The notes below the pieces were generated by a model, which ran no database searches, had not been told where the DNA came from, and worked only from the letters and a program-made list of their open reading frames with translations. Positions 13,511-45,577 of a stretch of 52,029 nt of DNA are shown piece by piece. Within the stretch, counting starts at the first letter, position 1, and the number at the start of each line of letters is the position of its first letter. The stretch lies in IMG/VR virus record IMGVR_UViG_3300028553_002163, positions 1 through 52,029 of that record; one strand, 5' to 3'. A program made the position numbers and the translations under genes. Source of the DNA: a virus.

Positions 13511-13513
13511 AAG

Positions 13514-15174: not shown

Positions 15175-15175
15175 T

Positions 15176-16897
15176 ATGTGCGGCATATATGGAATCACAA
15201 AAAGAGATAGGGAGTTTGTGGAGAAGTACATCAAGATATGTGAACACAGGGGACCTGATGGCAAGGATATTTGGAATGATGACAACATCACGCTTGGACA
15301 CAATCTTCTCAGCATAACAGATCAGCCTGGGTCGTCCCAGCAGCCATGGCGTAGCGAGCGAGGCAACATATTGATCTACAACGGAGAGATCTTTAATTAT
15401 TTTGATTTGTTAAAAAAATACATAGACTTCAAACCTGAAACAACCTGCGACACGGAACTGTTGGCGTGGGGATTAGACCAACATGGAGAGAAGTTTGTTG
15501 AACAGATGGACAGCATGCATGCTTTTGCCTTTTACAATCCACAGACAAAACAATTGATATTGAGCAGGGACCATGCCGGCATCAAACCATTATACTATGC
15601 ACAGACCGCCGAAGGGTTAATATTTGGTTCTGAGATCAAGGGCATGTTGGATCGCGTGCCAAACTCACGCAAGATTGATCAGCTGGCCATCAGTTGCATG
15701 AGCCTGACAGGCATCAACGCCACCAGGAACACGTTCTTCACCAACATCAAACAACTTATGCCGGGAGAAACGATGGTGTATGATTGCGCTGACCAGAGGA
15801 TAAAGACATCTGCCAGGATCTATATAAAGCCAAACGCCAATAAATCTTTTGATCCCACGGAGTTTAGAAGCAAGGTCAGAGACACAGTACAGATGTCGAG
15901 CATAGGCAGGCGCAAGGTAGGCGTGTTCCTCAGCGGGGGACTAGACAGCAGCGTGGTGGCTTATGAGATGATGAAGATACATGGATCCGTAAACACATTC
16001 ACCAACCGCATGGAACCAAATGTTGTCACAGACGAGGATTACAACAGTGATGCCAACTGTGCAAAAATATTGGCCCAAAGAGAAAAATTCAATCACACTG
16101 AAGTAATAATCACCCCGGGGGACGTGATCACCTCATGGAATGACAGCATCTACTACATGGAGCAACCAGTCTACAACCCCAGCATGAGCATGTACTATCA
16201 TACCAATCGCAGATTGCATGAGTCGGGCATCGTGATAACCATGGCGGGCGACATGGGAGATGAGATATTGGGAGGATATCCCAAGTATTGGAAGATGCGC
16301 AATGACCGACTTGATTCTTGGGCCGCGGTAGTGGACAAGTGGCTGCAGAGAATAAAGAGGCCTTTGGTGTTGGGAGTGCCAACACTGCCAGCAAATGTAT
16401 TGAGGGAAGAATTAATAAAATTATATCCCGATACTCTATGGAATCCTGCAGATCCTGTGGCATCTTATATGGCACTGGATTGCGTGGCACAAGCACCAAA
16501 TGAATTTTTCTCCAGGAACGACAAGTATGGCATGGCATTTGGTATGGAAGGTAGATTTCCTTTAACCACCAAAATGTTTATGCAATACTGTCTAGACATA
16601 CCAACGAGTTATAAAATAGGAAAAAATAAACACGAGACCAAGCTATTGACCAAGATAGCCTACAAAGGACTACTGCCAGACGCAATAATTAATAAACAAA
16701 AGACAGGGTGGACTGTGCCAATTGGACAGTGGCTGGCCCAGGGCACAAACAAAGAATTAAATAATTTTTATTTGTACAGCATGGGAGAAAAATCAATACT
16801 AGACAAGGTGTCAGTAAGCCAAAAGGCCGGCAAGGCACTGGTGCCGGGCTGGGTGATGAAAGATTGGATCAAGAGGTACGAGATGTATGAAAATTAA
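15176..16897 (+). CDS. asnB: Asparagine synthetase, glutamine-hydrolysing
   Basis: 573 residues. Class II glutamine amidotransferase domain with catalytic Cys2 (MCGIYG), HRGPDG (24-29), LIYNGEIFN and CDTEL. This is followed by the ATP-pyrophosphatase domain with SGGLDSS (253-259) and GDMGDEILGGYPKYW. Both active sites appear intact. In a glycan island such enzymes often amidate a sugar acid or build amino-linked glycans and do not make free asparagine, so the substrate is open. The following gene starts 11 nt before its stop. Confidence 0.88.
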   Translation: MCGIYGITKRDREFVEKYIKICEHRGPDGKDIWNDDNITLGHNLLSITDQPGSSQQPWRSERGNILIYNGEIFNYFDLLKKYIDFKPETTCDTELLAWGLDQHGEKFVEQMDSMHAFAFYNPQTKQLILSRDHAGIKPLYYAQTAEGLIFGSEIKGMLDRVPNSRKIDQLAISCMSLTGINATRNTFFTNIKQLMPGETMVYDCADQRIKTSARIYIKPNANKSFDPTEFRSKVRDTVQMSSIGRRKVGVFLSGGLDSSVVAYEMMKIHGSVNTFTNRMEPNVVTDEDYNSDANCAKILAQREKFNHTEVIITPGDVITSWNDSIYYMEQPVYNPSMSMYYHTNRRLHESGIVITMAGDMGDEILGGYPKYWKMRNDRLDSWAAVVDKWLQRIKRPLVLGVPTLPANVLREELIKLYPDTLWNPADPVASYMALDCVAQAPNEFFSRNDKYGMAFGMEGRFPLTTKMFMQYCLDIPTSYKIGKNKHETKLLTKIAYKGLLPDAIINKQKTGWTVPIGQWLAQGTNKELNNFYLYSMGEKSILDKVSVSQKAGKALVPGWVMKDWIKRYEMYEN

Positions 16898-17795
16898 AGT
16901 TATAACTTCCTACAAGCCGGGAACATGGGATTTGTATTCTGGAAAGGGTATCAGGAGCATAGCTGAGCAATGGCCCGCTGAAGTGGACCTGGTTGTCTAT
17001 CTGGAGGAGCCTAGACCCAATTACGAAAATGATAGGATCACATGGGTGGATCTCAACGCTGCTGAACCAGAACTTTTAAAATTTAAAAATAAACATAAAA
17101 ACGACCCCGTGGCGTGTGGAGAGCTGCAACAAATTGATGGAGGGGTCAGGCGACCGGCAAGACTGCAACAGCAGGGAGGCCTGGACAAGAACAAGGGCTC
17201 TTTCCTCTGGGACGCTGTGAGATTCAGCAACAAAGTTTTCTGCGTGATAAACGCTGTGCGTAATTCTCCCGGTTATGATTATGTGCTGTGGGTGGACGCG
17301 GACACGTTCACTTTTAGGCCAGTGCCTCTAAATTTTCTTGAGTCGCTGCTGCCAACGGAAACTATGCTGACTTTCTTAGGCAGGGAGAGATATGCTTTAC
17401 AGGATGGAGGCAAGTATCCCGAGTGTGGCTTCGTTGGATATAATCTGCATCACCCCAACATCAGAGAATTTATAACTGAATGGGAAAAATTATACATCAC
17501 AGACGAGGTATTCCAGCTGTTGGAATGGCATGACAGTTTCATATTTTGGCATCTCGCTAGGAAGTTCCAAAACAAATATCAAATACAGGTCAATGACATT
17601 GGCTATGGAAAGAATGTCAAGGGACACCATGTGTTCATCAACAGCGAACTTGGCCTGTACATGGACCACATGAAAGGCAAGAGGAAAAAATTAGGCAGCA
17701 GTGCCAAGGCGGATCTGCGGCCTCCCATGAAAGACGCTCCAGCAAATGTGTGGGACATAGATTATTGGAAGAAAGCACCAACTAACCTAAAATGA
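16887..17795 (+). CDS. GT-A glycosyltransferase
   Basis: 302 residues. VLWVDADTF carries the DxD (D137, D139). The GFVGYNLHHPNIREF segment and LEWHDSFIFWHLARK motif (acceptor side) follow, and the C-terminus is LRPPMKDAPANVWDIDYW. No membrane segment. The extended insert near 70-110 (Gln/Gly/Arg-rich) is unusual. Overlaps asnB at its start and is ATGA-coupled to the next gene. Confidence 0.75.
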   Translation: MKIKVITSYKPGTWDLYSGKGIRSIAEQWPAEVDLVVYLEEPRPNYENDRITWVDLNAAEPELLKFKNKHKNDPVACGELQQIDGGVRRPARLQQQGGLDKNKGSFLWDAVRFSNKVFCVINAVRNSPGYDYVLWVDADTFTFRPVPLNFLESLLPTETMLTFLGRERYALQDGGKYPECGFVGYNLHHPNIREFITEWEKLYITDEVFQLLEWHDSFIFWHLARKFQNKYQIQVNDIGYGKNVKGHHVFINSELGLYMDHMKGKRKKLGSSAKADLRPPMKDAPANVWDIDYWKKAPTNLK

Positions 17796-18664
17796 AAATA
17801 GCAGTGTTCCCTCAAAATGGCAGCAGCAACAGCAGACCTGTGTTCGAGGCCTTTATACAGCATCTGCAGTCAAGGGGAGAAAAAATATCCATCAATCGAG
17901 ACGAGGACTGCGACGTCGCAGTGATCTGGTCAGTGCTGTGGTCTGGCAGGATGGCATCCAACAGAAAGATATGGGACAGTTTCAGGCAAAGGAACCGACC
18001 TGTCGTGGTGATAGAGGTTGGTGGACTTAAAAGGAACAGCACATGGAAGATAGGCATCAACGGCATCAACAGAGACGCAGATTTCGCCAATGATAATTTT
18101 GATGACCAGAGATGGCCCAAATTCAACATACAATTCAAGCCATGGAGGAAGTCCGGAGACCATATAATAATATTAGGACAACACGACGCCAGCCACCAAT
18201 GGATCAATAAACCAGACATGGCCGAATGGATAGAGCAACAGATTACAGAGATTCGTAGGCACACAGAACGTCCCATACTTGTTAGGCCGCATCCTCGAAG
18301 CACATTCCAGATCAATGAGAAAAAATTTACAAATGTCACCGTGGGCCATCCTCATAGAGACAGAGACACATATGATGACACCGATTTCAAAAAGATACTT
18401 GTGTCCGCCTGGGCCGTGGTAAATTATTCATCCAATCCCGCCATAGAGTCAGTGATCAATGGCGTGCCCGTGTTTGTCAGCGAGTCTAGCTTGTGCTATG
18501 ACGTTGGCAATCACTCTCTACAGTACATAGAGCAGCCATTAATGCCTCAGCGTGAACAATGGGCAAATAAATTAGCTTATACCGAATGGACAGTGCAGGA
18601 GATCAGAGAAGGATTGCCATGGAGCCGGATCAGAGCTAGGCTAGAGGAAAAATATTTAAAATGA
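17792..18664 (+). CDS. Capsule-type (KpsC/KpsS-like) glycan protein, copy 4
   Basis: 290 residues. VIWSVLWSGRM, VVVIEVGGLKR, HIIILGQHDASHQW, then RPILVRPHPRSTF (RPHP motif), AWAVVNYSSNPAIESVINGVPVFV and LAYTEWTVQEIREG. It matches the other three paralogues block by block. RPHP is kept here and in copy 3, whereas copies 1 and 2 have other residues there. ATGA-coupled on both sides. Confidence 0.72.
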   Translation: MKIAVFPQNGSSNSRPVFEAFIQHLQSRGEKISINRDEDCDVAVIWSVLWSGRMASNRKIWDSFRQRNRPVVVIEVGGLKRNSTWKIGINGINRDADFANDNFDDQRWPKFNIQFKPWRKSGDHIIILGQHDASHQWINKPDMAEWIEQQITEIRRHTERPILVRPHPRSTFQINEKKFTNVTVGHPHRDRDTYDDTDFKKILVSAWAVVNYSSNPAIESVINGVPVFVSESSLCYDVGNHSLQYIEQPLMPQREQWANKLAYTEWTVQEIREGLPWSRIRARLEEKYLK

Positions 18665-19398
18665 AGATAATAAGTTCAAACGAAAACATACAACCAATAG
18701 AATGGGAACCCTATGTGGGAGAGACCATCATCACAAAAATTACTATAAAGGGCGGCAAGAAGACACAGCAAAATGGTTTCTATGAAGACCGGGTCAAGGC
18801 AGTGCCCAGGGGCAACGCATACATCATAGGCAATGGACCCTCTAGGAAAGGATTTAATTTAAATCTTTTGAAATCATCTGGGCAAACATATGGCTGCAAT
18901 GCCCTGCACCGAGACTTTACTCCAGATTATCTTTTTATGGTTGATTCTAAGATAACCAAGGGTATAGTTGATGCTGAAGTTTATAAAAGATGTATATGTT
19001 ATGCTCCCTCGTTGGAAGTCAATAGATATCCAGGTAAACTACATCTCATACCAAAAAATCCTTACTGGGTGTCAGGGAAGCAGGCCATGTGGACTGCCTG
19101 CGTGCATGGACACAGAGATGTATATCTGATAGGTTTTGATTTCCAGGAATATGGCAAAGGTAATCTAAACAACATTTATCAAGGCACCGAGTTCTATGGA
19201 CCTAGAGAAAGCGCCAATGTATTTGACGGGTGGTTGAGGCAGTTTCGTATTCTGATCAAGCAAAGACCCTACTGCAAATTCACGATCGTGCATGACAGTC
19301 CAACTGTGCCCATGCATCATCTACAGACAGGCACGGATCTAAAAAATACATTCCTGATGACTTACAAAGAGTTTACTGAGAAAGTCCTAGGCCGATAA
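18661..19398 (+). CDS. MptE-like / DUF115-type protein
   Basis: 245 residues. Central AYIIGNGPSRKGFNLNLL followed by TYGCNALHRDFTPDYLFMVD, as in the DUF115 / 6-hydroxymethylpterin diphosphokinase MptE-like superfamily, which also contains Maf-type glycosyltransferases of flagellin. A second block, KQAMWTACVHGHRDVYLIGFDF, is the matching C-terminal half of the Rossmann-like domain. In this context transfer of a nonulosonic-type sugar is more likely than pterin chemistry, but that is inference. Its 3' end overlaps the convergent protease gene by 26 nt. Confidence 0.68.
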   Translation: MKIISSNENIQPIEWEPYVGETIITKITIKGGKKTQQNGFYEDRVKAVPRGNAYIIGNGPSRKGFNLNLLKSSGQTYGCNALHRDFTPDYLFMVDSKITKGIVDAEVYKRCICYAPSLEVNRYPGKLHLIPKNPYWVSGKQAMWTACVHGHRDVYLIGFDFQEYGKGNLNNIYQGTEFYGPRESANVFDGWLRQFRILIKQRPYCKFTIVHDSPTVPMHHLQTGTDLKNTFLMTYKEFTEKVLGR

Positions 19399-31496: not shown

Positions 31497-31697
31497 ATGG
31501 GCATACACTACACATACAAGTCACAGAGCGGCGAGCGAAACCTGCGGAAGCAACAGAAACAGGACCAGCTGCGTAGTCGCAGCGACCAGAGAAAGCAATC
31601 ACGAGAACAGGCGGAACCACCCAGCAACGTTTACGTGGTGCCAGCGAATGAAGTGGTCACCCTGGATCACCTCACCAACCCGGATCTCAAGAAGTGA
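31497..31697 (+). CDS. Small basic protein upstream of a radical-SAM gene
   Basis: 66 residues. Residues 1-42 are rich in Arg, Lys, Gln and Ser; 43-66 (VYVVPANEVVTLDHL) look like a short folded or binding tail. Stop and next start overlap (GTGA). Its place directly before a radical-SAM gene invites the thought of a modified-peptide precursor, but it has no Cys and no leader/core pattern, so I do not claim it. Confidence 0.6.
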   Translation: MGIHYTYKSQSGERNLRKQQKQDQLRSRSDQRKQSREQAEPPSNVYVVPANEVVTLDHLTNPDLKK

Positions 31698-32695
31698 TTG
31701 ACACGAGATTATTCGATTGGTACAAAATAAACACTCGCAAGGATCTAGGCATCACAAACATATGTCCCAAGCCATTTGACACTGTGCTGATCGATCAGAA
31801 AGGCAGTTGTTTCATCTGCGAGTGTACAGCATGGTTGCCACAATCTGTGGGCAACCTACACAAAAATAGTTTGGAAGAAATATTCCATTCTGACATGGCC
31901 TATCATCTTCGTGATTCCATTGATGATGGATCTTATCGTTATTGCAATGAGAAACAGTGTACTTGGATTATCAAAGGTGATGTGCGTAACTATGCGGAGA
32001 ATGATCCCAAGATAAAAACCATACGACTGGCCATTGATGATTCTTGCAATCTCAGTTGCCCCAGTTGTCGGAAGTCAATAGTGTTCCACCAGCGAGGCAA
32101 GATGTTGAGCATGCGGTTAGAATTGGCCGATAGGGTGAATGAGTATCTTGCAAAACACAACAATATCACTGTGCATATAGGATCAGATGGGGATCCTTTT
32201 GCAAGCCTGGTATATCGATATTTCATGCGCACAGTGCCGGACAACAACACGCTGAGATTCAATCTACAGACCAATGGGTTATTGATAAAAAAAATGTTTG
32301 GGCGATTGGACAAGATATTAACAAGGATCGATGTGTTGAACATCAGCATCGATGGTGCCTCCAAGGAAACCTATGAATTGTTGCGCAGGGGTGGACAATT
32401 TGAGAAACTATTAGAAAATTTAGAATTTATAAAAGATTATCACGAGCAGTTCCGTATAAGATTTCATATGGTTGTGCAGAAGAGCAACTGGCATGAGATG
32501 AACAAGATGTTGGAGCTGGCAGACAGATTCAATGCACACGAAGTGATATTCAATAGGATAACTGACTGGGGCACCTACGATAATTTTAGTGAGCAACAGG
32601 CGCCGGAAAAAGATCCAGCGTTCCAAAAAGAACTTGATATGGTTCGACAGAATAAAAAAAGCGTTATTTGGGAACTGTTGGGCCGGAGGTTTTAA
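31694..32695 (+). CDS. Radical-SAM protein with N-terminal SPASM-like region
   Basis: 333 residues, GTG start overlapping the preceding TGA. Cluster motif C118-NLS-C122-PS-C125. Ahead of it is an auxiliary-cluster-like region: CFICEC (39-44), GNLHKNSLEEIFHSD, and C84/C89. In typical SPASM proteins this block follows the TIM barrel; here it comes first. Downstream barrel segments FNLQTNGLLI and VLNISIDGASKETYELLRRGG are the usual beta-strand motifs. Substrate unknown. Its stop shares TTAA (32692-32695) with the next, convergent gene. Confidence 0.8.
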   Translation: MIDTRLFDWYKINTRKDLGITNICPKPFDTVLIDQKGSCFICECTAWLPQSVGNLHKNSLEEIFHSDMAYHLRDSIDDGSYRYCNEKQCTWIIKGDVRNYAENDPKIKTIRLAIDDSCNLSCPSCRKSIVFHQRGKMLSMRLELADRVNEYLAKHNNITVHIGSDGDPFASLVYRYFMRTVPDNNTLRFNLQTNGLLIKKMFGRLDKILTRIDVLNISIDGASKETYELLRRGGQFEKLLENLEFIKDYHEQFRIRFHMVVQKSNWHEMNKMLELADRFNAHEVIFNRITDWGTYDNFSEQQAPEKDPAFQKELDMVRQNKKSVIWELLGRRF

Positions 32696-33789
32696 AAGTT
32701 TTCCATTCCCTGCTCGTTTAGATAGGTGCCCATTATCTCTCGGAGCGTATTTTTATCTCTAGACTTAGGAGCACATAATCCACAGGAACAACGAGTGGAT
32801 TGACATTGTATCACAGGAAACTCTCCCTTTGCCAACATAGCGTCTACTCCATTGATGTATTCATCCATGTTATCCATGGTGGCCAACGGTCCTAGTGTAC
32901 CTGCTATGGTATTGTGACAATCTCTGTTGGAATAAAATTCTCTGGTCATGGAATTGGCAGTGAGGAAGAACCAGCTCACGCTGCAGTACCATCCTTTAAA
33001 ATTTACTTCCTGGGGGAAATAATTATGTTTTTCTTTGATGTTCCTGTCAAAGCACAACGACCTCCCACCACAGCAGGCTCGGCCAGCGCCAGAAAGTCTT
33101 TGTAGTTTTTCTTCCTTGATGTCAATGTTGTAGAACGTTTTGAGATAGGCCACCTGTTCCTGGTTGTAAAAATATGGACCCTCCAATATCTTGGGGCGGA
33201 ATATTATATTCTCTTCGCGGCACCATTCTATGAAATCCACGCAGTCCTGCCAATAATCCTCTTGGTTGTGCATCAACACCACCATGTCATATTTTACACG
33301 ATTATCTCTCATGTAGATTAAATTATTTTTTACATTCTGTTTTAACTTGTCTGGTCCTTCTGAATGATAGCTGACCGTGATGCCCTCGATGTTGTCACAG
33401 ACATATTTCCACTTCTCTGGGGGACTGGTGGCGTTGGTGGTCAATCTTCTATTGAGATGCCAGCGGTCTCGGTAGGGTTTGTATAATTCTGATGATTGGG
33501 TTAGAATACGTTCCATCTCAGGATGATATAGAACCTCTCCGCCCAACAGATTCATTATGGCGGTCTTGGATTTTTCTTTTTTATATTTAGAAATCACATC
33601 CACGTAGCGATACATCTGAGCCAACATCTTGACACAGTCATCCACGGGAGGATGTGGTATTTTGTTATTGTGTCCCCAATCCGTGGAACAATAAGAACAG
33701 TCGTAGTTACATTTCAATGTAACTTTCCAGTCCAACAGTATGCTCATGGTCTGTGCTGGTAGATAGGCGGGCTCTATGGTCTGTATCAT
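32692..33789 (-). CDS. Radical-SAM protein with C-terminal Cys cluster
   Basis: 365 residues. C27-NYD-C31-SY-C34 motif at the N-terminus, LLGGEVLYHPEM glycine-rich SAM motif, TTNATSPPEKWKYV and VSYHSEGPDKL strands. The C-terminal third is Cys-rich (RACCGGRSLC, WYCSV, CQSTRCSCGLC), consistent with auxiliary Fe-S clusters in the usual order. It is behind its own TAAATA box (33799-33804). Confidence 0.82.
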   Translation of the reverse strand: MIQTIEPAYLPAQTMSILLDWKVTLKCNYDCSYCSTDWGHNNKIPHPPVDDCVKMLAQMYRYVDVISKYKKEKSKTAIMNLLGGEVLYHPEMERILTQSSELYKPYRDRWHLNRRLTTNATSPPEKWKYVCDNIEGITVSYHSEGPDKLKQNVKNNLIYMRDNRVKYDMVVLMHNQEDYWQDCVDFIEWCREENIIFRPKILEGPYFYNQEQVAYLKTFYNIDIKEEKLQRLSGAGRACCGGRSLCFDRNIKEKHNYFPQEVNFKGWYCSVSWFFLTANSMTREFYSNRDCHNTIAGTLGPLATMDNMDEYINGVDAMLAKGEFPVIQCQSTRCSCGLCAPKSRDKNTLREIMGTYLNEQGMENF

Positions 33790-33798
33790 GATTGAAAA

Positions 33799-33804
33799 TA
33801 TTTA
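33799..33804 (-). promoter_or_regulatory. TAAATA late-promoter-like box
   Basis: On the minus strand, TAAATA with a 9-nt gap to the ATG of the radical-SAM gene (33789). It lies in a 47-nt divergent gap that holds a second, plus-strand box at 33824. Confidence 0.55.
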
Positions 33805-33823
33805 TTGGCTACATTTTTGTCTG

Positions 33824-33829
33824 TAAATA
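33824..33829 (+). promoter_or_regulatory. TAAATA late-promoter-like box
   Basis: TAAATA followed by ACTGATA and ATG at 33837 (7-nt gap), no Shine-Dalgarno. Divergent partner of the box at 33799. Confidence 0.5.
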
Positions 33830-33836
33830 ACTGATA

Positions 33837-34400
33837 ATGAAAATCGCTATCACAGGCCACACAGGTGGCATTGGAAAATCCTTTGCACAATCGCTTGCCA
33901 CCAGGGGACACCACATAGTTGGAATCAGCCGCAGTGCGGGAGAAAATATACGAAGGACCGAACACACTGCCTCACTCATAGAGCCATGTGATCTGTTTAT
34001 CAACAACGCCCAGAGCATGTTTGCACAGACGGAGCTGTTGTATGAGGTTTGGAGAAGATGGCAAGGACAAAAGAAATATATTTGGAACATCAGCACAGCG
34101 ATGACACAATCTCCTATACACTCTGCACCGGACGGGCTGGATGATATTGCTATGAGTTTATACAGGATACAGAAATTATCATTAGAAGAGGCATCTAAAC
34201 AGTTGGGACATAAGAACGTTTGGCCCAGCATATCCGTGATACGTCCCGGAGGAGTGGCCACACAAAAAGAATGGGACAACACAAACAAACAAGATGTTGA
34301 CGAGTGGACTAAGTCTGTGATTAATATTTTTACTGCTCATCCCAATACCCACATACCCGACATATCCATAACATATAGAAAAACAAAATTAGAGCTGTAA
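33837..34400 (+). CDS. Short-chain dehydrogenase/reductase
   Basis: 187 residues. Rossmann motif GHTGGIGKS (7-15), NNAQ (56-59) and a C-terminal SVIRPGGVAT block. The usual YxxxK is seen as YRIQK in the SLYRIQKLSLEEA stretch, with a preceding Ser in NISTAMTQS. Shorter than classical SDRs (about 250) because the middle is trimmed. Likely oxidises or reduces a sugar- or peptide-linked hydroxyl in the pathway of the neighbouring radical-SAM genes. The next gene starts at its stop codon. Confidence 0.75.
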   Translation: MKIAITGHTGGIGKSFAQSLATRGHHIVGISRSAGENIRRTEHTASLIEPCDLFINNAQSMFAQTELLYEVWRRWQGQKKYIWNISTAMTQSPIHSAPDGLDDIAMSLYRIQKLSLEEASKQLGHKNVWPSISVIRPGGVATQKEWDNTNKQDVDEWTKSVINIFTAHPNTHIPDISITYRKTKLEL

Positions 34401-35542
34401 TGGACGCTAAGAATTATATAAAAAACAAGAGCTTCTGTCCTTTGCCGTGGACCGGCTTTATTGTGCATCAAAACGGAGATGTGAGAAATTGCGTGTTGAG
34501 CAAAAGCAAAATAGGCAATCTCAAAGATAATTCTATACAAGAAATAGTCAGTGGAGAAAAGAATAAAGAAATTAAAAGGCAGATGTTATCTGACGCCAAG
34601 CCCAGCAACTGCGAGGGCTGCTACAGATTGGAAGAGAATAAAAATAGTTTTGACATCGTGAGCCAACGGATATACTATCTCAAAGAATTAAAAACTGTAG
34701 ATCCTATCATCTATGATTCCGTGGACAATTTCGACCTACATACCGTTGATCTTAGATGGTCCAATCAATGCAACCAGGCCTGCGTGTATTGTGGTCCCCA
34801 CAACAGCAGCATGTGGGCGAAAGAGATCGGCGGTGAGGATCTCATGGATCAGGAGAAGAAACAGCGGCTGAAGGATTACGTGTTCGCCAATGTGAAACAA
34901 CTAAAAAATGTTTACCTGGCAGGTGGAGAACCGCTGTTGATGAACGAGAACCAGGAATTCTTGGAACTGTTGCTGAAACATAATCCCGGTGTGATCCTTA
35001 GGGTGAACACAAACCTGTCAGCGCTGGAGACCAAGGTGGGAAAGATGATACAGACATTCAAGAACGTGCATTGGATAGTCAGTGTCGAGTCCATGGGCGC
35101 AGCATATGATTACATCCGATACGGGGGCTCGTGGAGTAAATTCTGTGACAACCTCTCTGAGTTGAGAAGAAACAAGGGGCATAAGATCTCCTTCAACATG
35201 TTGTACTTTGTTTTGAATTACATTAAATTATTTGACTGCGTTGACTATTTGAGAGCGCAGGGATTCCATGAGAACTCTTTTGTCATTGGGCCATTGTATG
35301 GTCCCGAATACCTGAACATATTAAATCTTCCCGCGCCAAAGATATCCCAGGCCAAGAAGATGCTGGAGCAAAGGATAGAAAGCAAGCCCGGATATTTCCT
35401 ACAGGACAGCTACGTAAATCTTTTGAAGTATCTGGACTCACCCTATGAAAAAAATATGCAGGGCACCTTTGATGGATTGGCCAGGTTGGACGTGCGGAGG
35501 AAACTGGAGAGCAGGAAGATATTTGGAGAGGTATATGATTAA
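34400..35542 (+). CDS. Twitch/SPASM-type radical-SAM protein
   Basis: 380 residues. N-terminal auxiliary region first: SFCPLPWTGFIVHQNGDVRNC (C13, C31), GNLKDNSIQEI, C71-EG-C74. Then the radical-SAM motif C124-NQA-C128-VY-C131, LAGGEPLLM and VNTNLSALETK, VSVESMGAAYDYIRYG. This N-terminal placement is the layout of the twitch-domain radical-SAM family. Substrate unknown. The sulfotransferase gene starts 8 nt before its stop. Confidence 0.83.
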   Translation: MDAKNYIKNKSFCPLPWTGFIVHQNGDVRNCVLSKSKIGNLKDNSIQEIVSGEKNKEIKRQMLSDAKPSNCEGCYRLEENKNSFDIVSQRIYYLKELKTVDPIIYDSVDNFDLHTVDLRWSNQCNQACVYCGPHNSSMWAKEIGGEDLMDQEKKQRLKDYVFANVKQLKNVYLAGGEPLLMNENQEFLELLLKHNPGVILRVNTNLSALETKVGKMIQTFKNVHWIVSVESMGAAYDYIRYGGSWSKFCDNLSELRRNKGHKISFNMLYFVLNYIKLFDCVDYLRAQGFHENSFVIGPLYGPEYLNILNLPAPKISQAKKMLEQRIESKPGYFLQDSYVNLLKYLDSPYEKNMQGTFDGLARLDVRRKLESRKIFGEVYD

Positions 35543-36113
35543 GGTATTAGAATTATTGCCTGGCAAGTTTGTTTTTCCAATATTCAAGAACGGCCTGTCC
35601 AGCATCGAGGCCTTTGCAAAGGAAAAAAATATCAAGTGGCTGATAAATGAGCAACTGGAAAAGCTGCCCATGATCACATTATTTCTACGAGAACCACATG
35701 AACGATTTGTCTCGGGGGTGCATAGTTTCATAGAGTTTGAAAAAAGGAAGAACAAGGACATAGACTATGAGACGATGTTGCACTGCATAGAGAACCACAG
35801 CGTGGTCAACGAGCACTTCATGCCGCAATTTTTCTTTATCAGAAACCTGATGAAATATTACACAGGGATGATCGAGCTGCGGGGAGTCAGTGAGCTCAGG
35901 GAGTGGATACCCAACAGGAACAAGCCGGCCATTCCAGAAATCACAGAGGCACAGAGGCAGAGGATCAATAAAATAAAATACGCCGACAATCTCCATGATG
36001 CTTTGCTTTTTGAGAGGCACATGTACAAGATAGCGGACATGTACTACGTGAGCAAGAAAGTCAACATCAGGTCGCTTATAGCGGAGATAGAATATGCACT
36101 GCCCCAGGCTTGA
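35535..36113 (+). CDS. Sulfotransferase-like protein
   Basis: 192 residues from ATG 35535 (an in-frame upstream start at 35445 lies inside the previous gene). FPIFKNGLSSI (14-24) matches the 5'-phosphosulfate-binding loop and FLREPHERFVSGVHSF (50-65) matches the 3'-phosphate-binding motif of PAPS-dependent sulfotransferases. Compact for the family. It probably sulfates a glycan or a modified peptide. The next radical-SAM gene overlaps its end by 20 nt. Confidence 0.75.
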   Translation: MIKVLELLPGKFVFPIFKNGLSSIEAFAKEKNIKWLINEQLEKLPMITLFLREPHERFVSGVHSFIEFEKRKNKDIDYETMLHCIENHSVVNEHFMPQFFFIRNLMKYYTGMIELRGVSELREWIPNRNKPAIPEITEAQRQRINKIKYADNLHDALLFERHMYKIADMYYVSKKVNIRSLIAEIEYALPQA

Positions 36114-37122
36114 TCATTTCGCCAGGATAAATCACAATGGCAAGATAGGCAAGTGTGGCCACATGACCGGAGCCAAAGAATTTGATTCATTTGAGTCCAT
36201 GCAACAGAGCAGTTGGTTGACTGGCATAAAAGAAAAAATGAAGGATGGCCAATGGCCTGCCGAATGTGTGCGTTGTCGAATGACCGAGGACGCCACCAAC
36301 ACCAGCATACGATTGGACATGATAGAGCGAGATAGGATACTGAGGGCAGTGGACAAGGACTATCTGATAGTGGGCGGGGTGCTGGACAACATTTGCAACA
36401 GCGCCTGCCAGTCCTGCCACAGTGGGCTCAGCACCAAGATAGGCAGCCTGTCTTCCAAGGACTACCAGCTGGTCAACAACTACGATACGTTTTTCAAGTT
36501 CCCCCAGGAGAGGATACGTGAGGTGGACGTCAATGGTGGGGAGCCCGCGGCCAGTCCCAACTATAAAAAATTATTGAGGAACCTACCGGAGTCTGTGAAA
36601 ATTGTCAGGATCAACACCAACTGCTCGAGGATGATCGGCGAGATAAAAGACCTATTACGCAAGGACATCAAGGTCATAGTGACAATCAGTTTTGATGGAG
36701 TGGGCGATACACATGACTACGTGAGGTGGCCAATACTGTGGAAAGATTTTAAAAGCAATGTCGGCAAGTACATCTCCATGAGAGACCAATATGAAAATCT
36801 GAGGTTAAACTTTTGGACCACGGTGAGCTGCCTCAACGCCGCGGACCTGGACAACATAATCGAATTTGCATCTACAAATAAGATCGACCACTCCTATGGT
36901 TTCTGCATCAGACCAGACGTGTTGGACATCAGGCATGAGAACAAACTAACCCTCAGGGCCAGAGAAAAATTTTCCAAAACAGATAATAAATTATTGCTTG
37001 CTGTGGGCAACAAGTGTTGCACGTTCAAGAAAAACAACGATGAGCAATTAAAGAAATTTATTCTGTCGCAGGATGCCTTGAGGCATATTGATTATCAAAA
37101 TTATCTCAACGAAGTTTTGTAG
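36094..37122 (+). CDS. Twitch/SPASM-type radical-SAM protein
   Basis: 342 residues. N-terminal Cys region (C3, C21, and C58-VR-C61) precedes the radical-SAM motif C101-NSA-C105-QS-C108. VNGGEPAAS, RINTNCSRM and TISFDGVGDTHDYVRWP are the barrel motifs; a late CC pair lies in NKCCTFKKN. Same layout as 34400-35542. Overlaps the convergent SGNH gene by 17 nt at the stop codons. Confidence 0.83.
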   Translation: MHCPRLDHFARINHNGKIGKCGHMTGAKEFDSFESMQQSSWLTGIKEKMKDGQWPAECVRCRMTEDATNTSIRLDMIERDRILRAVDKDYLIVGGVLDNICNSACQSCHSGLSTKIGSLSSKDYQLVNNYDTFFKFPQERIREVDVNGGEPAASPNYKKLLRNLPESVKIVRINTNCSRMIGEIKDLLRKDIKVIVTISFDGVGDTHDYVRWPILWKDFKSNVGKYISMRDQYENLRLNFWTTVSCLNAADLDNIIEFASTNKIDHSYGFCIRPDVLDIRHENKLTLRAREKFSKTDNKLLLAVGNKCCTFKKNNDEQLKKFILSQDALRHIDYQNYLNEVL

Positions 37123-37828: not shown

Positions 37829-37904
37829 TGGTGGAGGCGATCAGGATCGAACTGACTACCTCTTGACTGCCAGCCAAGCGCTCTACCAAGTGAGCTACGC
37901 CCCC
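37829..37904 (-). tRNA. tRNA-Ala (anticodon GGC)
   Basis: 76 nt including an encoded CCA. Acceptor GGGGGCG/CGCCTCC (one G-T), D-arm GCTC...GAGC, anticodon stem CTTGG/TCAAG with loop CTGGCAG (GGC at 34-36), T-arm GTCAG-TTCGATC-CTGAT. A normal cloverleaf. Reads GCC/GCU codons. Confidence 0.95.
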
Positions 37905-37914
37905 ATATGTATTT

Positions 37915-37990
37915 TGGTGCCCCTAGCCGGAATTGCACTGACGACCTCCACCTTACCATGGTGTTGCTCTACTCACTGAGCTATAGGGGC
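37915..37990 (-). tRNA. tRNA-Thr (anticodon GGT), unusual T-arm
   Basis: 76 nt including CCA. Acceptor GCCCCTA/TAGGGGC perfect, D-arm GCTC...GAGC, anticodon loop ATGGTAA (GGT). Anomalies: an A-G mismatch at the top of the anticodon stem (27-43), an A-C mismatch in the T-stem (GTCAG/CCGGC) and a T-loop TGCAATT in place of the usual TTCRANT, so the T54-psi55 pair is changed to T-G. It may still fold. 10 nt from tRNA-Ala, same strand. Confidence 0.88.
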
Positions 37991-38033: not shown

Positions 38034-38660
38034 TTAAAAGAATTGATAAAACAATTGGAGATCAATGCCCAGGCCATGCTCTACCAGTTCTTTGATTCCA
38101 GAATATAGGAAATACACAGCCAGCGCCGAGAACAACCACCTGCTGTAGAAGAATATCTGTCGTACTGGCAATTTCTTGATCTGGTAGTTCGCAACCTTAA
38201 CAGCTATTACCAAAACCACCAAACCCACCAAAATGCCCAAACCAATCAAACCCGCATTGGGATAGTCAGCATAGATGCCTGTGAGGAAAAGAACCACTTC
38301 CACACCTTCTCTGAAAATGATAAAGAATGCTGTGATGCCCAGTGCCCATGCGCTGTGTTTAGGAAGGTCTTTAACATGCTGCGCAGCACCATGGCAGAAC
38401 CAGGCCACCCAGGCCAATATAACACCCGTTATAATGGCGATTAAAGCTTCAAAGCGCTCTAAATTTGCATGATCTCCCAGCCAAGCAGCAGTTGCACTGC
38501 CCAATAAAATTGTGGCTGCAAATGCGGCTGCAGAGCTGATCCATATGCTTTTTTGTTGCTGTGAATTACCATTGGTAGAGGCCAGGGCCAGGACCATGAT
38601 CAACCATACCTCAAACCCTTCTCTGAATATAACAAATGCTGAACTTAACAGTGGTGTCAT
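38034..38660 (-). CDS. FTR1-family iron permease
   Basis: 208 residues, shorter than typical FTR1/EfeU (about 270-280). Two REGxE motifs, RE-GFE (13-17) and RE-GVE (117-121), are the iron-binding signatures of the family. Several hydrophobic segments place it in the inner membrane. It would import ferric/ferrous iron; no EfeO/EfeB partner is in the window. It has its own sigma70-type promoter (38688-38716), suggesting early expression. Downstream are only the two tRNA genes. Confidence 0.85.
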   Translation of the reverse strand: MTPLLSSAFVIFREGFEVWLIMVLALASTNGNSQQQKSIWISSAAAFAATILLGSATAAWLGDHANLERFEALIAIITGVILAWVAWFCHGAAQHVKDLPKHSAWALGITAFFIIFREGVEVVLFLTGIYADYPNAGLIGLGILVGLVVLVIAVKVANYQIKKLPVRQIFFYSRWLFSALAVYFLYSGIKELVEHGLGIDLQLFYQFF

Positions 38661-39145: not shown

Positions 39146-39159
39146 AGTCATGTTATACT
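39131..39159 (+). promoter_or_regulatory. Sigma70-type promoter of the DUF59 gene
   Basis: TTGTGA (39131-39136), 17-nt spacer, TATACT (39154-39159). The expected transcription start falls at or beside the ATG at 39165, so the message would be leaderless or nearly so. Confidence 0.5.
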
Positions 39160-39164
39160 CTAGT

Positions 39165-39533
39165 ATGAATGATATTACCAAAGATGTCAGCCAAACCTTG
39201 GCCGATGTTGTGGATCATGAAGCTACTCGATTGTTGTACATTCAAAAAATTGTGGAACGATTGAGGACTGTGTTTGATCCTGAACTGCCCATCAATATTT
39301 ACGATCTTGGGCTGATATATGACATCAAAGTGACGGATCAGTCCGAGTGCCATGTGCTGCACACCCTGACCTCTGCATTCTGCCCCGCTGCCGACATCAT
39401 ACCCGTGGACATACAAAATGCTGTGCAGAGCGTGGAGGGCATTGCCAAATGCCATGTGCGCATCACCATGTTCCCCCAGTGGAGCCCGCAGAGTCTGGAT
39501 CCTGAAATACGACAGCTGATACTGGGTTGGTAA
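39165..39533 (+). CDS. MIP18/DUF59-family Fe-S assembly protein (SufT-like)
   Basis: 122 residues from ATG 39165; in-frame upstream starts (39150, 39000) lie within or before the promoter. DPELPINIYDLGLIYDIKV and HTLTSAFCPAADIIPVDIQNAV are the family blocks (the conserved Cys of the PGCP-type motif is here FCPA), followed by RITMFPQWSPQSL. Members help mature Fe-S proteins. In this window possible clients are the radical-SAM enzymes and endonuclease III. Confidence 0.8.
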   Translation: MNDITKDVSQTLADVVDHEATRLLYIQKIVERLRTVFDPELPINIYDLGLIYDIKVTDQSECHVLHTLTSAFCPAADIIPVDIQNAVQSVEGIAKCHVRITMFPQWSPQSLDPEIRQLILGW

Positions 39534-40098: not shown

Positions 40099-41160
40099 TT
40101 AAAACTTGTAACGAATGGTTGCCAACAACTGTGGATTATAGTCCTTGTATAAACCTGTGTTGACGGATGTCTGCTCTTTGTCATGATAATAGAGTCCGAC
40201 TTCCAATCCAGCTCTCTTGTCTGGTCTTTTGTGTTTATCGTCTTCGGTGTGCAGGTTGTAAACCAACCCCCAATAGTTGCCGGTGAATCCTAGGTCGTCA
40301 TTTTCCGTTCTGTGAACAGTGCCATAGATGCGATCATTGAAACTGTACAGCAATCCATAGTCATATCTGTTCTTGTCAGCGAACCCAGTGTCCATGTCAT
40401 CCCAAACTTCTGCCCCCCATATTAAGGGAATGTTCCAACGATACAAACTGCCACCCAATGACCAACCTTTTTGTGTTCGTTCATTAAAACTAGAAACACT
40501 TGTTGAACTTTTTGGATTTTTGATTTGCATGTAAGATAAATCAGCATAACCAAACAGTCCCACTGTTGCACTGGTGTATAACGCATCTCTCTCGTTGTCC
40601 CAACCCACGACCAACCCCACAGGCAAGTCTTGTCTTAATCTATATGAATCAAAATCAAATTGATCGTCCCAATTGAAACCACCAATGGCCAGCACTGCCT
40701 TTTCTCTGTGATCTAATCTTGAATTGGTCTGTGTGATGATTAGTGGTGCGCCTATCTTGGCAGTTTTTGCGAAGCCCAAACGCTGAGCGTCGGTCTCACC
40801 CAGGTAGAGCCTGTAGTAGTCATTGCCCACTCCCATTTGTTTCTCCTGCACGGTGTTGTTCAGTGTTGTGTCCAATGAGTAATAGGTGTCATACAGCATG
40901 GAGGCTCCGGTCCAATTGACATAGGCATTATTAAATTTGTGATTGATTCCCACTTGCAGCTCCGCTCTAGAATCAACTCCGCTGTCGTAGGTGCGATCAT
41001 CATAGTAGGCCTCTACTTCGCCCGTGATGAACACGCCCTTGGGTATGGAAAGTTTATTGGTTTCCAGGTTGGCTATTCTCTGCTCCAGTTGCTTGATCTT
41101 GTCTGCGTCAGCAAACGCCGCTGAGGTCCATAACAATAATAGCAATAATATTTTTTTCAT
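40099..41160 (-). CDS. Outer-membrane porin
   Basis: 353 residues from the Met at 41160 (a longer in-frame start at 41196 overlaps the bilin reductase gene). Signal peptide KKILLLLLLWTSAAFA with cleavage after AFA, then a short coiled coil (ADKIKQLEQRIANLETN) and a beta-barrel of alternating strands (for example FITGEVEAYYDDRTYD, YDYGLLYSFNDRIYGTVHR) ending TIRYKF, the canonical C-terminal Phe for outer-membrane insertion. A complete, apparently functional porin on a phage genome is unusual. It follows the bilin reductase by 7 nt, so the two are probably cotranscribed. Confidence 0.85.
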   Translation of the reverse strand: MKKILLLLLLWTSAAFADADKIKQLEQRIANLETNKLSIPKGVFITGEVEAYYDDRTYDSGVDSRAELQVGINHKFNNAYVNWTGASMLYDTYYSLDTTLNNTVQEKQMGVGNDYYRLYLGETDAQRLGFAKTAKIGAPLIITQTNSRLDHREKAVLAIGGFNWDDQFDFDSYRLRQDLPVGLVVGWDNERDALYTSATVGLFGYADLSYMQIKNPKSSTSVSSFNERTQKGWSLGGSLYRWNIPLIWGAEVWDDMDTGFADKNRYDYGLLYSFNDRIYGTVHRTENDDLGFTGNYWGLVYNLHTEDDKHKRPDKRAGLEVGLYYHDKEQTSVNTGLYKDYNPQLLATIRYKF

Positions 41161-41167
41161 TACTGTA

Positions 41168-41845
41168 TTATACTTTAGGGAACAGGTTCTCCGCAACGAA
41201 TATTTTCACAAGATCTTCTGGTAATCCCAGGCTCAGCATCACCCGCGGCGTGTGCGGATTCTTCATCTGATGCTCGCAGTAGTAGTTCTGTGCTGAGATC
41301 ACATCCTCACGTGAGGAATCATTTTTGTAATCACCTATGTGCTGCAGGTAATGATTTAGATTATTTTCAGCCATGTTGCATACCTGTGTCAGTTCCTGCT
41401 CTTCCTGTATGTTGCCCGCGGCTATCATGCCGCCGCTGAAAATGGCCTTGGCCCAGTCCGGCAGCTCCCTGGCCTTGCTGGGTTGGTAAGACTTGGCGCT
41501 GTCAACGAACCACTGGGTCAACGCATGCTGTTTGTTGAGAAGAGGCGAGAAGTCATGGAACGCCCCCGTGACCTTGTTCTTGCCGGCTATCACGTCAAAG
41601 CCATAAATGGGGCCACCGTTGGTCAGTTCTGGGAACAGGCACACGTGCATCATCCACAGGCCCTTGGTATCACGAGCATCCACCACGTCTATGTGTGCCC
41701 TCCTGACATTGTCGTTGCGCCAGGTCCTGTTGATCCATCCAGTGTTGTTGAACTTGTGCATGCCGTCCTCCTGGTATTCCACGCAGTGCTGGTCCAACAA
41801 CGCCACGATGTTATCTTTGCACTGTATAAGTTTTTCCCAGATCAT
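41168..41845 (-). CDS. Ferredoxin-dependent bilin reductase (PcyA/PcyX type)
   Basis: 225 residues from ATG 41845 (a TTG at 41890 would add 15). Family blocks match PcyA: RRAHIDVVDA (H51, D53), LWMMHVCLFPEL (H67, the counterpart of PcyA His88), GPIYGFDVIAGKNKVTGAFHDFSP (D84, counterpart of Asp105), RELPDWAKAIFS, and YYCEHQMKNPHTPRVMLSLG. PcyA Glu76 appears as Asp. These enzymes reduce biliverdin to phycobilins using ferredoxin; PcyX-type enzymes from marine viral sequences yield phycoerythrobilin. No ferredoxin gene is in the window. Heme oxygenase, its usual partner, lies at 43199-43789. Promoter not clear. Confidence 0.9.
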   Translation of the reverse strand: MIWEKLIQCKDNIVALLDQHCVEYQEDGMHKFNNTGWINRTWRNDNVRRAHIDVVDARDTKGLWMMHVCLFPELTNGGPIYGFDVIAGKNKVTGAFHDFSPLLNKQHALTQWFVDSAKSYQPSKARELPDWAKAIFSGGMIAAGNIQEEQELTQVCNMAENNLNHYLQHIGDYKNDSSREDVISAQNYYCEHQMKNPHTPRVMLSLGLPEDLVKIFVAENLFPKV

Positions 41846-41924
41846 ATTTGAAATACTTATAGCCAAGAAATTTTGTTGGCAAATATCCAAAAATTAAATA
41901 GTTCATATCTATATATTTTAAAAA

Positions 41925-43190
41925 ATGGTAAAAAATAAAAACATTGTGAGAGTGTCTCTCGCAAGCGGATTTGGCACGCTGTTTGAGTGGTATGATTTTT
42001 TGATCTATGCCGTGGCCACAGGATTGGTTTTCAAACATCTATTCTTCCCCGCTACCGATCCCGCCATTGCAATATTGCTGTCCATGTTGACATTTGGTGT
42101 TGGCTATGTAGTGCGGCCGCTGGGCGGTTTGATATTTGGTTATTTTGGAGATAGGGTCGGCCGCAAATCCATGCTGCTGTGGACTCTGGTGATCATGGGC
42201 CTCAGCACGTTTGCCATTGGCTTGCTGCCCACATATCAACAAGTGGGCCTCTGGGCGCCGGCCATGTTAGTTGCCTTGCGCATCATACAGGGGCTGAGCT
42301 TTGGAGGAGAATGGGCCGGGGGAAGCATCATGATCCTGGAGCATGCTCCAGACAAGCACAGGGGTCTCTATGCCAGCTTGGTGCAGATGGGCTACCCAAT
42401 TGGATTCTTGTTGGCGTCTGGAGTTTTCTTGCTTACTATCAATCTATCCGGCGATCAATTCCTGGAATGGGCATGGCGGGTGCCTTTCCTACTTTCTATT
42501 GTGTTGGTCATTGTTGGTTTGGTGATTAGATCACGCATCTCGGAAACCCCTGTGTTCAAAAAACTGCAAGAACAAAGAAAATTATTGAAGGTTCCCTTCA
42601 TGCATGTGTTCAAGCATGAGAAGAGAGCGTTGTTCCTGGGCATTGGCATCAAGACATCAGAGATAGCTTGGGGCTATCTGCCCGCGGTATTCTTTCCGCT
42701 CTGGGCTGTGAACAATTTGGGAGTGGCGAGGGCCGACGTGATGAACTACATATTCATGGCCATGTTCATATCTATCGTGGCCATACCCGCCGCGGCATAT
42801 CTTTCCGATCGCATAGGCAGGAGGAAGATTTTCCTCTACACTGCTGCCATAATGACTGTTTTGGCCATGCCCATATGGTCCACCATGCAGGCGGGACAGT
42901 TCGAACTGCCGTTAGTTGTTGGGTTGGTTGCCGGTGCAGTGATGTTGGCGCCACTGGCTGCTATATTGCCAGAATCTTTTTCAGCTGCAAGTCGTTATAC
43001 TGGGGCAAGCCTGGCCAATCAGATCGCCGCGGCACTGGGAGGTGGTGTGGTGCCTGCCCTGGCCAGTTGGGTAGCAATATCCTCAGGCAGTCTTGTGGGA
43101 GTGGGCATACTGATGGCCGTGTTGAGTCTAAACACTGCGGTGTGTGCTTGGTTAAGCAAAGAAACTTACAATAAGTCGTTGCTCAAATAA
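41925..43190 (+). CDS. MFS transporter, metabolite:H+ symporter (MHS) family
   Basis: 421 residues, about 12 transmembrane segments. MHS signatures: GTLFEWYDFLIYA (residues 17-29), FFPATDP, GYVVRPLGGLIFGYFGDRVGRK (loop 2-3) and FGGEWAGG. Relatives carry alpha-ketoglutarate, citrate, proline/betaine or shikimate. Inner membrane. It sits alone on the plus strand between the bilin reductase and heme oxygenase genes on the other strand; a role in that pathway is possible but not shown. A TAAATA string occurs 24 nt upstream (41895-41900). It ends 8 nt from the convergent heme oxygenase. Confidence 0.88.
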   Translation: MVKNKNIVRVSLASGFGTLFEWYDFLIYAVATGLVFKHLFFPATDPAIAILLSMLTFGVGYVVRPLGGLIFGYFGDRVGRKSMLLWTLVIMGLSTFAIGLLPTYQQVGLWAPAMLVALRIIQGLSFGGEWAGGSIMILEHAPDKHRGLYASLVQMGYPIGFLLASGVFLLTINLSGDQFLEWAWRVPFLLSIVLVIVGLVIRSRISETPVFKKLQEQRKLLKVPFMHVFKHEKRALFLGIGIKTSEIAWGYLPAVFFPLWAVNNLGVARADVMNYIFMAMFISIVAIPAAAYLSDRIGRRKIFLYTAAIMTVLAMPIWSTMQAGQFELPLVVGLVAGAVMLAPLAAILPESFSAASRYTGASLANQIAAALGGGVVPALASWVAISSGSLVGVGILMAVLSLNTAVCAWLSKETYNKSLLK

Positions 43191-43198
43191 TTCATATT

Positions 43199-43789
43199 TT
43201 AAACTTCATGCGGTTGCCGATATTGACTCTGGTTAAGCTCTTCCATCTCAATAAATAATTTTATAGCATACTCGAAACACTTTTTTGCTTCCTCAACAAC
43301 GTTTTCCGGAGCAGACTTTGTATAATCATTTATTGTTTCTCTGATGGATAATATTAATTGCTTGGCATTATCAAATTCCAAATATGTGTTGGGTCCGGGT
43401 GTTTTTGACTTTATAATTTGACCCCCGTACAGGTCTCCCAGATACCTCACATACACGTGGGCATACAATCTGGCTGGATCATTTTGAATAGTGCCAATGT
43501 GCGAAACATATTCAAGCGTGCTTGGTACCACTTCCGGCTGAGGCGTGATGCGCACCCAGAGATCCTGGCAATCGTGCCTGAGCTTGTGCTCTCTGGCTAT
43601 GCCGGGCAGAGAATCCAACAGTCCTCGCCGCTGGCAAGTTTTCTCCAGCGCACCATAACAATGTGCCAGGTTGTACAAATAGGTCGCATACAGACGCGGA
43701 TGTATTTTGCCCGACATCATTGTGGAGACGAACTCTTGCTGTTCGGCTCTGCGATGCTGCTCCATGGTTGCTTGCCTGATGTCTGTCAT
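43199..43789 (-). CDS. ho1: Heme oxygenase (HO-1 type)
   Basis: 196 residues from ATG 43789, which overlaps the preceding stop (ATGA); longer in-frame starts run through that gene. Heme-ligand His12 in the QHRRAEQ segment, and the distal-helix motif RYLGDLYGGQII (GDLYGGQ at 118-124), are diagnostic for biliverdin-forming heme oxygenase. It converts heme to biliverdin IXalpha, CO and Fe2+ with reductant from ferredoxin. It is the last gene of a minus-strand operon that begins with the radical-SAM gene at 45577 behind a TAAATA box, which suggests late expression. Confidence 0.92.
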   Translation of the reverse strand: MTDIRQATMEQHRRAEQQEFVSTMMSGKIHPRLYATYLYNLAHCYGALEKTCQRRGLLDSLPGIAREHKLRHDCQDLWVRITPQPEVVPSTLEYVSHIGTIQNDPARLYAHVYVRYLGDLYGGQIIKSKTPGPNTYLEFDNAKQLILSIRETINDYTKSAPENVVEEAKKCFEYAIKLFIEMEELNQSQYRQPHEV

Positions 43790-44256
43790 ATGTTCTTCTC
43801 GTATATCCATCCCATGCCTTGGGTCTCTGTTTGGAAGATCCACTGATACACAGGCCAGGTGAACTCCAGGTACCACTCACCGTTGAATCCCATATAATTT
43901 GACTTCATTATTGGCTGCGCTGTGATGTTATTTTCTTTGGCATATTGGTAGTAGCCCTTGGTGTATATTGGCCTATATTGACTTTGCAACATGAAACTGG
44001 AATAACGAAATCCCTCAATCCCTATGCTTTTAATTATCACGGCCTTGTCTTTGTCGCCCACTGTGTCTCTATCTGTCTTGTTCAATAGGAACACACTGAT
44101 GCGATTGTTATCTGCGGCGGGCAGCAGCCATTCAAAAGTTTTATGTTCTCCCATGTGGCCTTCGTGCAATACCTGTTCGTTGAACTGGATCTTGACCACT
44201 GGTTGTTCTGCCCAATATATTGGTTGGATGTCCAGAGCTAATTTGACGTCACGCAT
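43786..44256 (-). CDS. Conserved phage protein, possible carbohydrate-binding fold
   Basis: 156 residues, beta-rich. Distinct blocks LPAADNNRISVFLLNKTDRDT, DKAVIIKSIGIEGFRYSSFM, YRPIYTKGYYQYAKEN, and SNYMGFNGEWYLEFTWPVYQWIFQ with ETQGMGWIYEKNI at the end. Resembles small beta-sandwich virion or glycan-binding proteins of marine phages; similar in kind (not in sequence detail) to 49293-49682. It overlaps the genes on both sides, so its expression is tied to heme oxygenase and the radical-SAM protein. Confidence 0.68.
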   Translation of the reverse strand: MRDVKLALDIQPIYWAEQPVVKIQFNEQVLHEGHMGEHKTFEWLLPAADNNRISVFLLNKTDRDTVGDKDKAVIIKSIGIEGFRYSSFMLQSQYRPIYTKGYYQYAKENNITAQPIMKSNYMGFNGEWYLEFTWPVYQWIFQTETQGMGWIYEKNI

Positions 44257-45577
44257 TTACGTGTCCTTGGTATCCATATGCAGACAGGAATTCGTAGAGC
44301 TCTGAGGAATAATTTTTTATGTTTATTTTTTTCAATTTGTCCCATTGGTCCAGCTTATCTGCGCAGGTTTTTCTCAATTGTTCTGCATCCACTGGCGCAG
44401 ATACTTTTGCTAGCCCAATAATAGATTCACATTCGTTTCTCATGCTGATATCTATTTTGTGTGGATCTTTTTGATTGTTAAATTCTTTATTTTCTGTTTT
44501 GGGCAGTGTGTGGAGTACTGCAGATACTTCTTTTATTACTTTTTGTTTAAGATTGTCTGGCAATAGTTTGGCCTGTTGCCACAACGGATTGACCAGCATG
44601 CTGTTATCAATTGGTATGCCCAGCTCGTAGCACCACTTGATTAGGCTTGCATAGGTTGGTAGACTCAATATGCTTGGCACAGTTCTTATGGCTAGAGCCA
44701 TGTTGTCTGGTCGCAGTTTTTTTAATTTTTCTATGTTGGACATTATATTTTTTATTCTGCCTGCCTGTCTGATATAATCGCCCACCGGTTCCACGCTCTC
44801 TATGCTGATGCCTATCTCAGTCCTTTTAAATTTTGCCAATCTATCAAAGTATTTTGTATAATCCACACTGCCATTGATTGTGAAACTAAAATTAATATTC
44901 TTTGCCATGTCTTTCTCCACTAGATAATTTAGAAGAAAATCAAATTTAGGTATGAATGCAACTTCTCCCCCTATGATGTGCATCACTCGAATGCTGTCTG
45001 GGTGCCTCTCGAGATAATCCATGAAGTTTGCCCACCCCTGTGGATCGTCAGACCAATGGTCAAAATTGTTGTTTGTATCTATCCATCCAAGCTCTTTCCA
45101 TTCTCTCTGTAATGGTGTGCTGAAGTACGGATTACACATCCTGCATGAAAAATTACATCGGTCTCCTAGATTGACGTGTAGGCTGTGTACCGTGGTCTCG
45201 GTAAGTCCTTGGTTGTCCTCGCTGTATTGGAAACGCGGCAGATTTGGACTCTGCTGATAGCTCCTCTCGAAAGAATCAAGAAACACCAAGGACTTCATGT
45301 TTTCTTTCCTGCGCGGGCTCTCATAGCCCACCTCGTCCTTGAGTTGGCATGCCCTGCACATGGGGTCGGGTATCTCGCCCAGCTTGATCATCCTGGCCTG
45401 GCGCATGCGGGGACTGTTCCAATACTCTTCTATGGACATCTTCTTGATGTTCCACACTTGTCCCAGCGGGGTGCCAAGTATCTTGTCGTTCTGGCAGCCA
45501 CAGAGATCGAAACTGCCATCATTGTTGATGTTCAACTCAAACCAAGGAATGTTACAGAATATTTTGCTGTTAGGCAT
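44249..45577 (-). CDS. Twitch/SPASM-type radical-SAM protein
   Basis: 442 residues. N-terminal auxiliary Cys region: FCNIPW, LCGC (26-28), C74-RA-C77. Radical-SAM motif C141-NFS-C145-RM-C148, then IIGGEVAFIPKF and TINGSVDYTKYF, ISIESVEPVGDYIRQAG. The fifth radical-SAM gene of the window and the first gene of the heme oxygenase operon. Behind a TAAATA box 7 nt upstream of its ATG. Confidence 0.85.
   Translation of the reverse strand: MPNSKIFCNIPWFELNINNDGSFDLCGCQNDKILGTPLGQVWNIKKMSIEEYWNSPRMRQARMIKLGEIPDPMCRACQLKDEVGYESPRRKENMKSLVFLDSFERSYQQSPNLPRFQYSEDNQGLTETTVHSLHVNLGDRCNFSCRMCNPYFSTPLQREWKELGWIDTNNNFDHWSDDPQGWANFMDYLERHPDSIRVMHIIGGEVAFIPKFDFLLNYLVEKDMAKNINFSFTINGSVDYTKYFDRLAKFKRTEIGISIESVEPVGDYIRQAGRIKNIMSNIEKLKKLRPDNMALAIRTVPSILSLPTYASLIKWCYELGIPIDNSMLVNPLWQQAKLLPDNLKQKVIKEVSAVLHTLPKTENKEFNNQKDPHKIDISMRNECESIIGLAKVSAPVDAEQLRKTCADKLDQWDKLKKINIKNYSSELYEFLSAYGYQGHVNA

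Follow-up and report, generated by a model that had tools for sequence, protein, structure and literature searches.

Viral gene pairs that encode a haem oxygenase (HO) and a ferredoxin-dependent bilin reductase (FDBR) are already known, among them the marine viral ho1-pcyX pair (5OWG) and the pair of the cultured Pelagibacter phage Mosig (EXVC030M), both of which have an HO adjacent to an FDBR of the PcyX clade. The first-pass annotation of the DNA analysed here had described such pairs from uncultured oceanic viruses. The pair is indeed a known viral one, but this limit does not hold, since Mosig has been cultured and an HO and FDBR have been characterised from a freshwater phage (PMC11480375). 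That phage, CB_2, carries a valaS-hemO-pcyA/X cassette outside the cyanophages, and its FDBR makes phycocyanobilin (PCB) and is without Asp55, the PcyX-specific catalytic residue (PMC11480375). Cyanophage PcyA and PebS belong to the same superfamily and serve bilin synthesis in infected cells. HO and FDBR of close relatives have been characterised biochemically (PMC11480375 and works cited there), and the product of an FDBR is not reliably predictable from sequence (PMC13193486).

The window, i.e. the whole stretch of DNA analysed, is a 52,029-base linear virus record and probably a fragment of a larger phage genome. We consider it likely that its HO and FDBR belong to a phage auxiliary metabolic module leading from haem via biliverdin to phycoerythrobilin (PEB), organised as an HO-PcyX operon, often with a porin, and later split by insertion of an MHS-type symporter. 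New relative to the described systems are the non-pelagiphage backbone, the recurrent porin, the MHS-split junction, the mosaic module, and Asp and Glu variants of the FDBR in sister phages. The literature searched, to which the original PcyX papers did not belong, made no mention of the porin's recurrence, of a junction split by an MHS gene or of this backbone. The features of the locus are as follows.

38034-38660, minus strand: FTR1/EfeU-type iron permease (PF03239, E 2e-13), a gene of the phage lineage outside the cassette
39150-39533, plus strand: SufT/PaaD-like Fe-S assembly protein flanking the cassette (PF01883, E 3e-16; TIGR02945, E 2.5e-29, below cut-off)
40099-41160, minus strand: predicted phage-specific 16-stranded general porin (AlphaFold2 model and Foldseek), with a predicted N-terminal signal and helix
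41168-41845, minus strand: FDBR of the PcyX clade, 225 aa (PF05996, E 5.3e-17, above cut-off)
41851-41861, minus strand: TATAAGTATTT box, a weak candidate for a late-type promoter, 5-15 nt upstream of the FDBR ATG and also found in phage L116
41925-43190, plus strand: MHS-type symporter of the major facilitator superfamily (MFS) in the HO/FDBR junction (Pfam PF00083 and PF07690 above cut-off, and NCBIfam)
43199-43789, minus strand: HO, 196 aa (PF01126, E 1.2e-21), with proximal His12 and GDLYGG
43786-44256, minus strand: gene for a 156-aa protein with no family match, overlapping HO by 4 nt
44249-45577, minus strand: twitch-domain radical-SAM protein upstream of HO (NF033640, E 6e-70, above cut-off)

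Family matches and coordinates place HO, FDBR, porin and symporter where the first-pass annotation had them, with HO and FDBR on one strand and the symporter on the other, and all frames are intact. The 7-nt gap between FDBR and porin was likewise borne out, the porin ATG at 41160 lying 7 nt past the FDBR stop. HO begins (ATGA) within the stop codon of the gene for the 156-aa protein, and that gene shares 8 nt with the radical-SAM gene. In the proposed link of HO to a radical-SAM gene and a virion-like gene, the label virion-like lacks support, as the gene at 43786-44256 matched no family in Pfam, PHROGs or NCBIfam.

HO combines membership of the HO fold family with the proximal His and the distal GDxxGG motif of biliverdin-producing haem oxygenases. 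It matches solved HO structures at E 5e-18, and His12 and G118/D119/G122/G123 are kept in its phage relatives; identity to the HO of Mosig is 46%. The best solved relative of the FDBR is PcyX (5owg; E 1e-103, 144 of 224 residues or 64% identical, versus E 2e-14 for PcyA), and the protein is 66.5% identical to its Mosig counterpart. In a maximum-likelihood tree built without PebA, PebB, PebS, HY2 and the bacterial AX-clade PcyA, it joined PcyX 5OWG and the proteins of Mosig and of viral contigs, away from the PcyA of cyanobacteria and cyanophages, which supports the PcyX side of its earlier reading as a PcyA/PcyX-type reductase. Cyanophage PcyA, in contrast, forms a separate clade, is about 24-28% identical to the window FDBR and has Glu at the Asp53 site; this comparison covered PcyA sequences, and PebS was set beside the window FDBR by superfamily and role only.

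Asp53, His67 and Asp84 of the window FDBR correspond to Asp55, His69 and Asp86 of PcyX, so that the protein shares the catalytic residues of the marine viral enzymes and, unlike the CB_2 reductase, has the PcyX-specific Asp. The His67/Asp84 pair, to which the first-pass annotation had pointed, is invariant across 120 phage relatives. The intact HO, the PcyX-clade FDBR, the family matches and the residues thus support a biliverdin-to-phycobilin pathway. In this pathway HO would open haem to biliverdin, CO and Fe2+, and PcyX would reduce biliverdin in four electrons, by way of 15,16-dihydrobiliverdin, the predicted product being PEB and not PCB. The electrons would presumably come from a host ferredoxin or from one encoded on the missing part of the phage genome; none was found in the window, and a ferredoxin is present in Mosig and one other contig.

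The FDBRs of the sister phages L116 and L117 have Glu, the PcyA state, at the Asp53 site, whose residue is linked to whether PCB or PEB is made, while 118 of the 120 phage FDBRs in the set have Asp. If this residue predicts the product, the sister phages would differ in their bilin, which is a prediction only. Glu is also found at this site in more distant HO-FDBR pairs (L180, L182, L184 and L188). These divergent phage pairs, on IMG/VR contigs of up to 139 kb (L180-L188), belong to other apparent backbones, and their FDBRs are 31-36% identical to that of L117, which served as query.

HO lies directly upstream of FDBR in 65 of the 68 viral loci with room for an HO, and in most viral relatives the two ORFs overlap by 14-35 nt. 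These and the other layout counts refer to the nearest relatives of the window proteins, near-copies included, and are not unbiased frequencies. The best explanation, and as a whole a probable one, is that an overlapping HO-PcyX operon, followed in many phages by the phage-specific general porin, is the ancestral layout. The window differs from Mosig and ho1-pcyX in that its HO and FDBR are parted by the MHS gene. Among the three phages with the cassette at this site, whose gene order is otherwise the same, the window and L116 have the MHS gene between HO and FDBR on the opposite strand; in L117 this gene is absent and HO and FDBR overlap by 35 nt. Because the sister phage L117 is without it, the MHS gene is most simply read as a derived insertion. 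Another gene occupies the HO/FDBR junction in L003, L004, L010 and L047, showing that the junction takes cargo repeatedly; in L004 and L047 this gene scores above cut-off with 2OG-Fe(II) oxygenase models, and in L003 the match is only weak.

The symporter belongs to the MFS by its PF00083 and PF07690 matches, and its match to the MHS model TIGR00883 (E 4e-116, 388 bits) falls below the curated cut-off of 443. As to its substrate, the shikimate and ProP models matched far below cut-off only. As the MHS gene would have entered the HO/PcyX junction later, PcyX and the porin probably need a promoter of their own. A TATAAGTA box precedes FDBR in the window and in L116, which fits such a promoter. 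As a late promoter the box was set aside: it is kept in L116, but its core 8-mer occurs at chance level across the window. In a general scan for promoters and terminators, promoter-like sites were no commoner than in shuffled sequences.

The AlphaFold2 model of the porin, of moderate confidence (pLDDT 70), has the 16 strands of a general outer-membrane beta-barrel. By Foldseek its best PDB matches are OmpF/OmpU-type porins, and it also resembles the Rhodobacter porin (TM 0.53-0.71 in the top matches). Unlike general bacterial porins, to which it is about 12% identical, the protein had no match in Pfam, PHROGs or NCBIfam at an E cut-off of 0.01, and its family is found almost only on viral contigs, where the viral collection gave 133 confirmed stretches; the genome collection added one 3.3-kb MAG contig. 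The model thus points to a porin by fold that stands outside any described family.

The first-pass annotation had treated the link between reductase and porin as peculiar to this genome. This is not so, as the same link recurs in dozens of phages: in 33 of 73 close viral loci the porin comes immediately after FDBR and, when searched from the porin side, FDBR lies directly upstream in 46 of 76 porin loci. No porin is found beside the Mosig pair.

Judged by its genes, the source virus is a large uncultivated myovirus of a lineage separate from the pelagiphages. The window codes for gp32-like, RecA/UvsX-like, DnaB-like helicase and DNA polymerase III alpha proteins. Its DnaB is 92% identical to that of the contigs behind L116 and L117 and has no match in Mosig, which argues for a distinct tailed-phage lineage. 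Among named phages the nearest DnaB is that of the jumbo Pseudomonas phage PA5oct (50%). The window accordingly does not share the replication backbone of the Mosig-like pelagimyophages. A second record under a different contig name (L002) holds the same genes at 100% protein identity, which makes an assembly accident less likely, although both records may share one source. In this lineage the cassette would occupy an accessory site between conserved lineage genes, and cassette-free relatives keep the flanking genes intact.

The module itself is mosaic. The window HO clusters with those of L116 and L117 (support 100) and so follows the phage lineage, while the window porin nests at 85-88% identity among porins of pelagiphage-type loci, so called because their neck proteins and terminase share about 55-92% identity with those of Mosig. 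A porin clade of the window, L116 and L117 was rejected (AU p 0.0006, quick tree), and the porin has thus been exchanged with pelagiphage-type viruses. A joint swap of FDBR and porin was considered and dropped, as the swap is seen for the porin only. It seems rather unlikely that HO-PcyX, with or without the porin, is a mobile unit across unrelated phage families in which the Glu/Asp difference has the sisters making PCB and the window phage PEB; if true, bilin identity would matter in a host without phycobilisomes. With this locus the phage bilin pathway extends to a second myovirus lineage, unrelated to the first, and is linked to a porin family of phages that had not been described. The sister phages supply natural Asp and Glu variants of the FDBR, and together with the cultured relative Mosig this opens to direct testing the question of why bilins are made by phages whose hosts are apparently not photosynthetic.

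Both iron release and photoreceptor pigment, which the first-pass annotation had named, are possible purposes. We tentatively favour release of iron from haem, with biliverdin cleared as a reduced bilin and the porin acting separately on outer-membrane permeability. Whether the porin is functionally independent of the bilin genes, serving outer-membrane permeability or superinfection exclusion and merely sharing a cargo slot, is evenly balanced. The conflict between porin and HO trees indicates that the slot content has been swapped, and 25 of the 31 contigs with a porin not beside FDBR show no FDBR in the available sequence, several of these porins lying near ribonucleotide reductase genes. 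However, most of the 25 are short fragments, the other six contigs have an FDBR elsewhere, and the 46 porin loci with FDBR directly upstream belong to phages of two unrelated backbones.

It is also conceivable, if somewhat doubtful, that the reduced bilin is itself what selection favours, serving a phytochrome, BBAG globin or other sensor of the host as chromophore or ligand, with iron incidental. HO and FDBR are nearly always paired with overlapping ORFs, His67 and Asp84 are kept in all FDBRs compared even where the Asp53 site is Glu, and the Glu of the sisters at this product-linked site would be of consequence only if the bilin itself counts. Some phages carry AlaS along with the pair (PMC11480375). 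In our set it is present in 3 of 45 FDBR contigs, one copy being truncated, a finding more in line with production of bilin or haem than with a net gain of iron; unlike the CB_2 cassette, the window has no AlaS. On the other hand, the family searches, which covered part of the window ORFs, turned up no biliprotein or phytochrome gene, and the PEB predicted here is not among the usual chromophores of phytochromes. The tight pairing and the AlaS genes suggest that, whatever the use, what selection keeps is haem run through to reduced bilin, be it for iron release or otherwise.

An iron-acquisition island of HO, FTR1 permease, SufT and radical-SAM enzymes acting together is improbable: the genes lie within about 8 kb and iron supply has been discussed for the HO-FDBR cassette (PMC11480375), but FTR1 persists in related phages (L165-L167, L171) without HO, FDBR, porin or SufT at the site, and the FTR1 of the window family was not detected near HO-FDBR in pelagiphage-type loci, so that proximity is explained by position and FTR1 was rejected as a cassette member.

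In Mosig (L088; MT647606.1), a gene at 8357-9127 is annotated as a putative ferrochelatase. It has no Pfam match and a PF00762 search of the genome found none; the annotation looks unsupported, and the gene was dropped as a sign of haem synthesis. Two approaches to the host gave little: one genome scan for bacterial relatives of the porin yielded the single 3.3-kb MAG contig, and plasmid-borne relatives of the MHS symporter (best about 44%) were spread over many taxa.

Five radical-SAM-like genes lie around the cassette (31694-37122 and 44249-45577), two confirmed by Pfam/SPASM matches and the others by reading, and their homologues recur in related phages. Two tRNA genes, Ala-GGC and Thr-GGT (37829-37990), adjoin the FTR1 gene. 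Between 48200 and 51500 the G+C content rises from about 0.44 to 0.52-0.56 over ORFs that by eye are sulfotransferase-like and methyltransferase-like. A run of glycosyltransferase-, epimerase-, methyltransferase- and asparagine-synthetase-like genes at 6710-19398, in which the family check covered asparagine synthetase alone, suggests phage-encoded surface or glycan modification.
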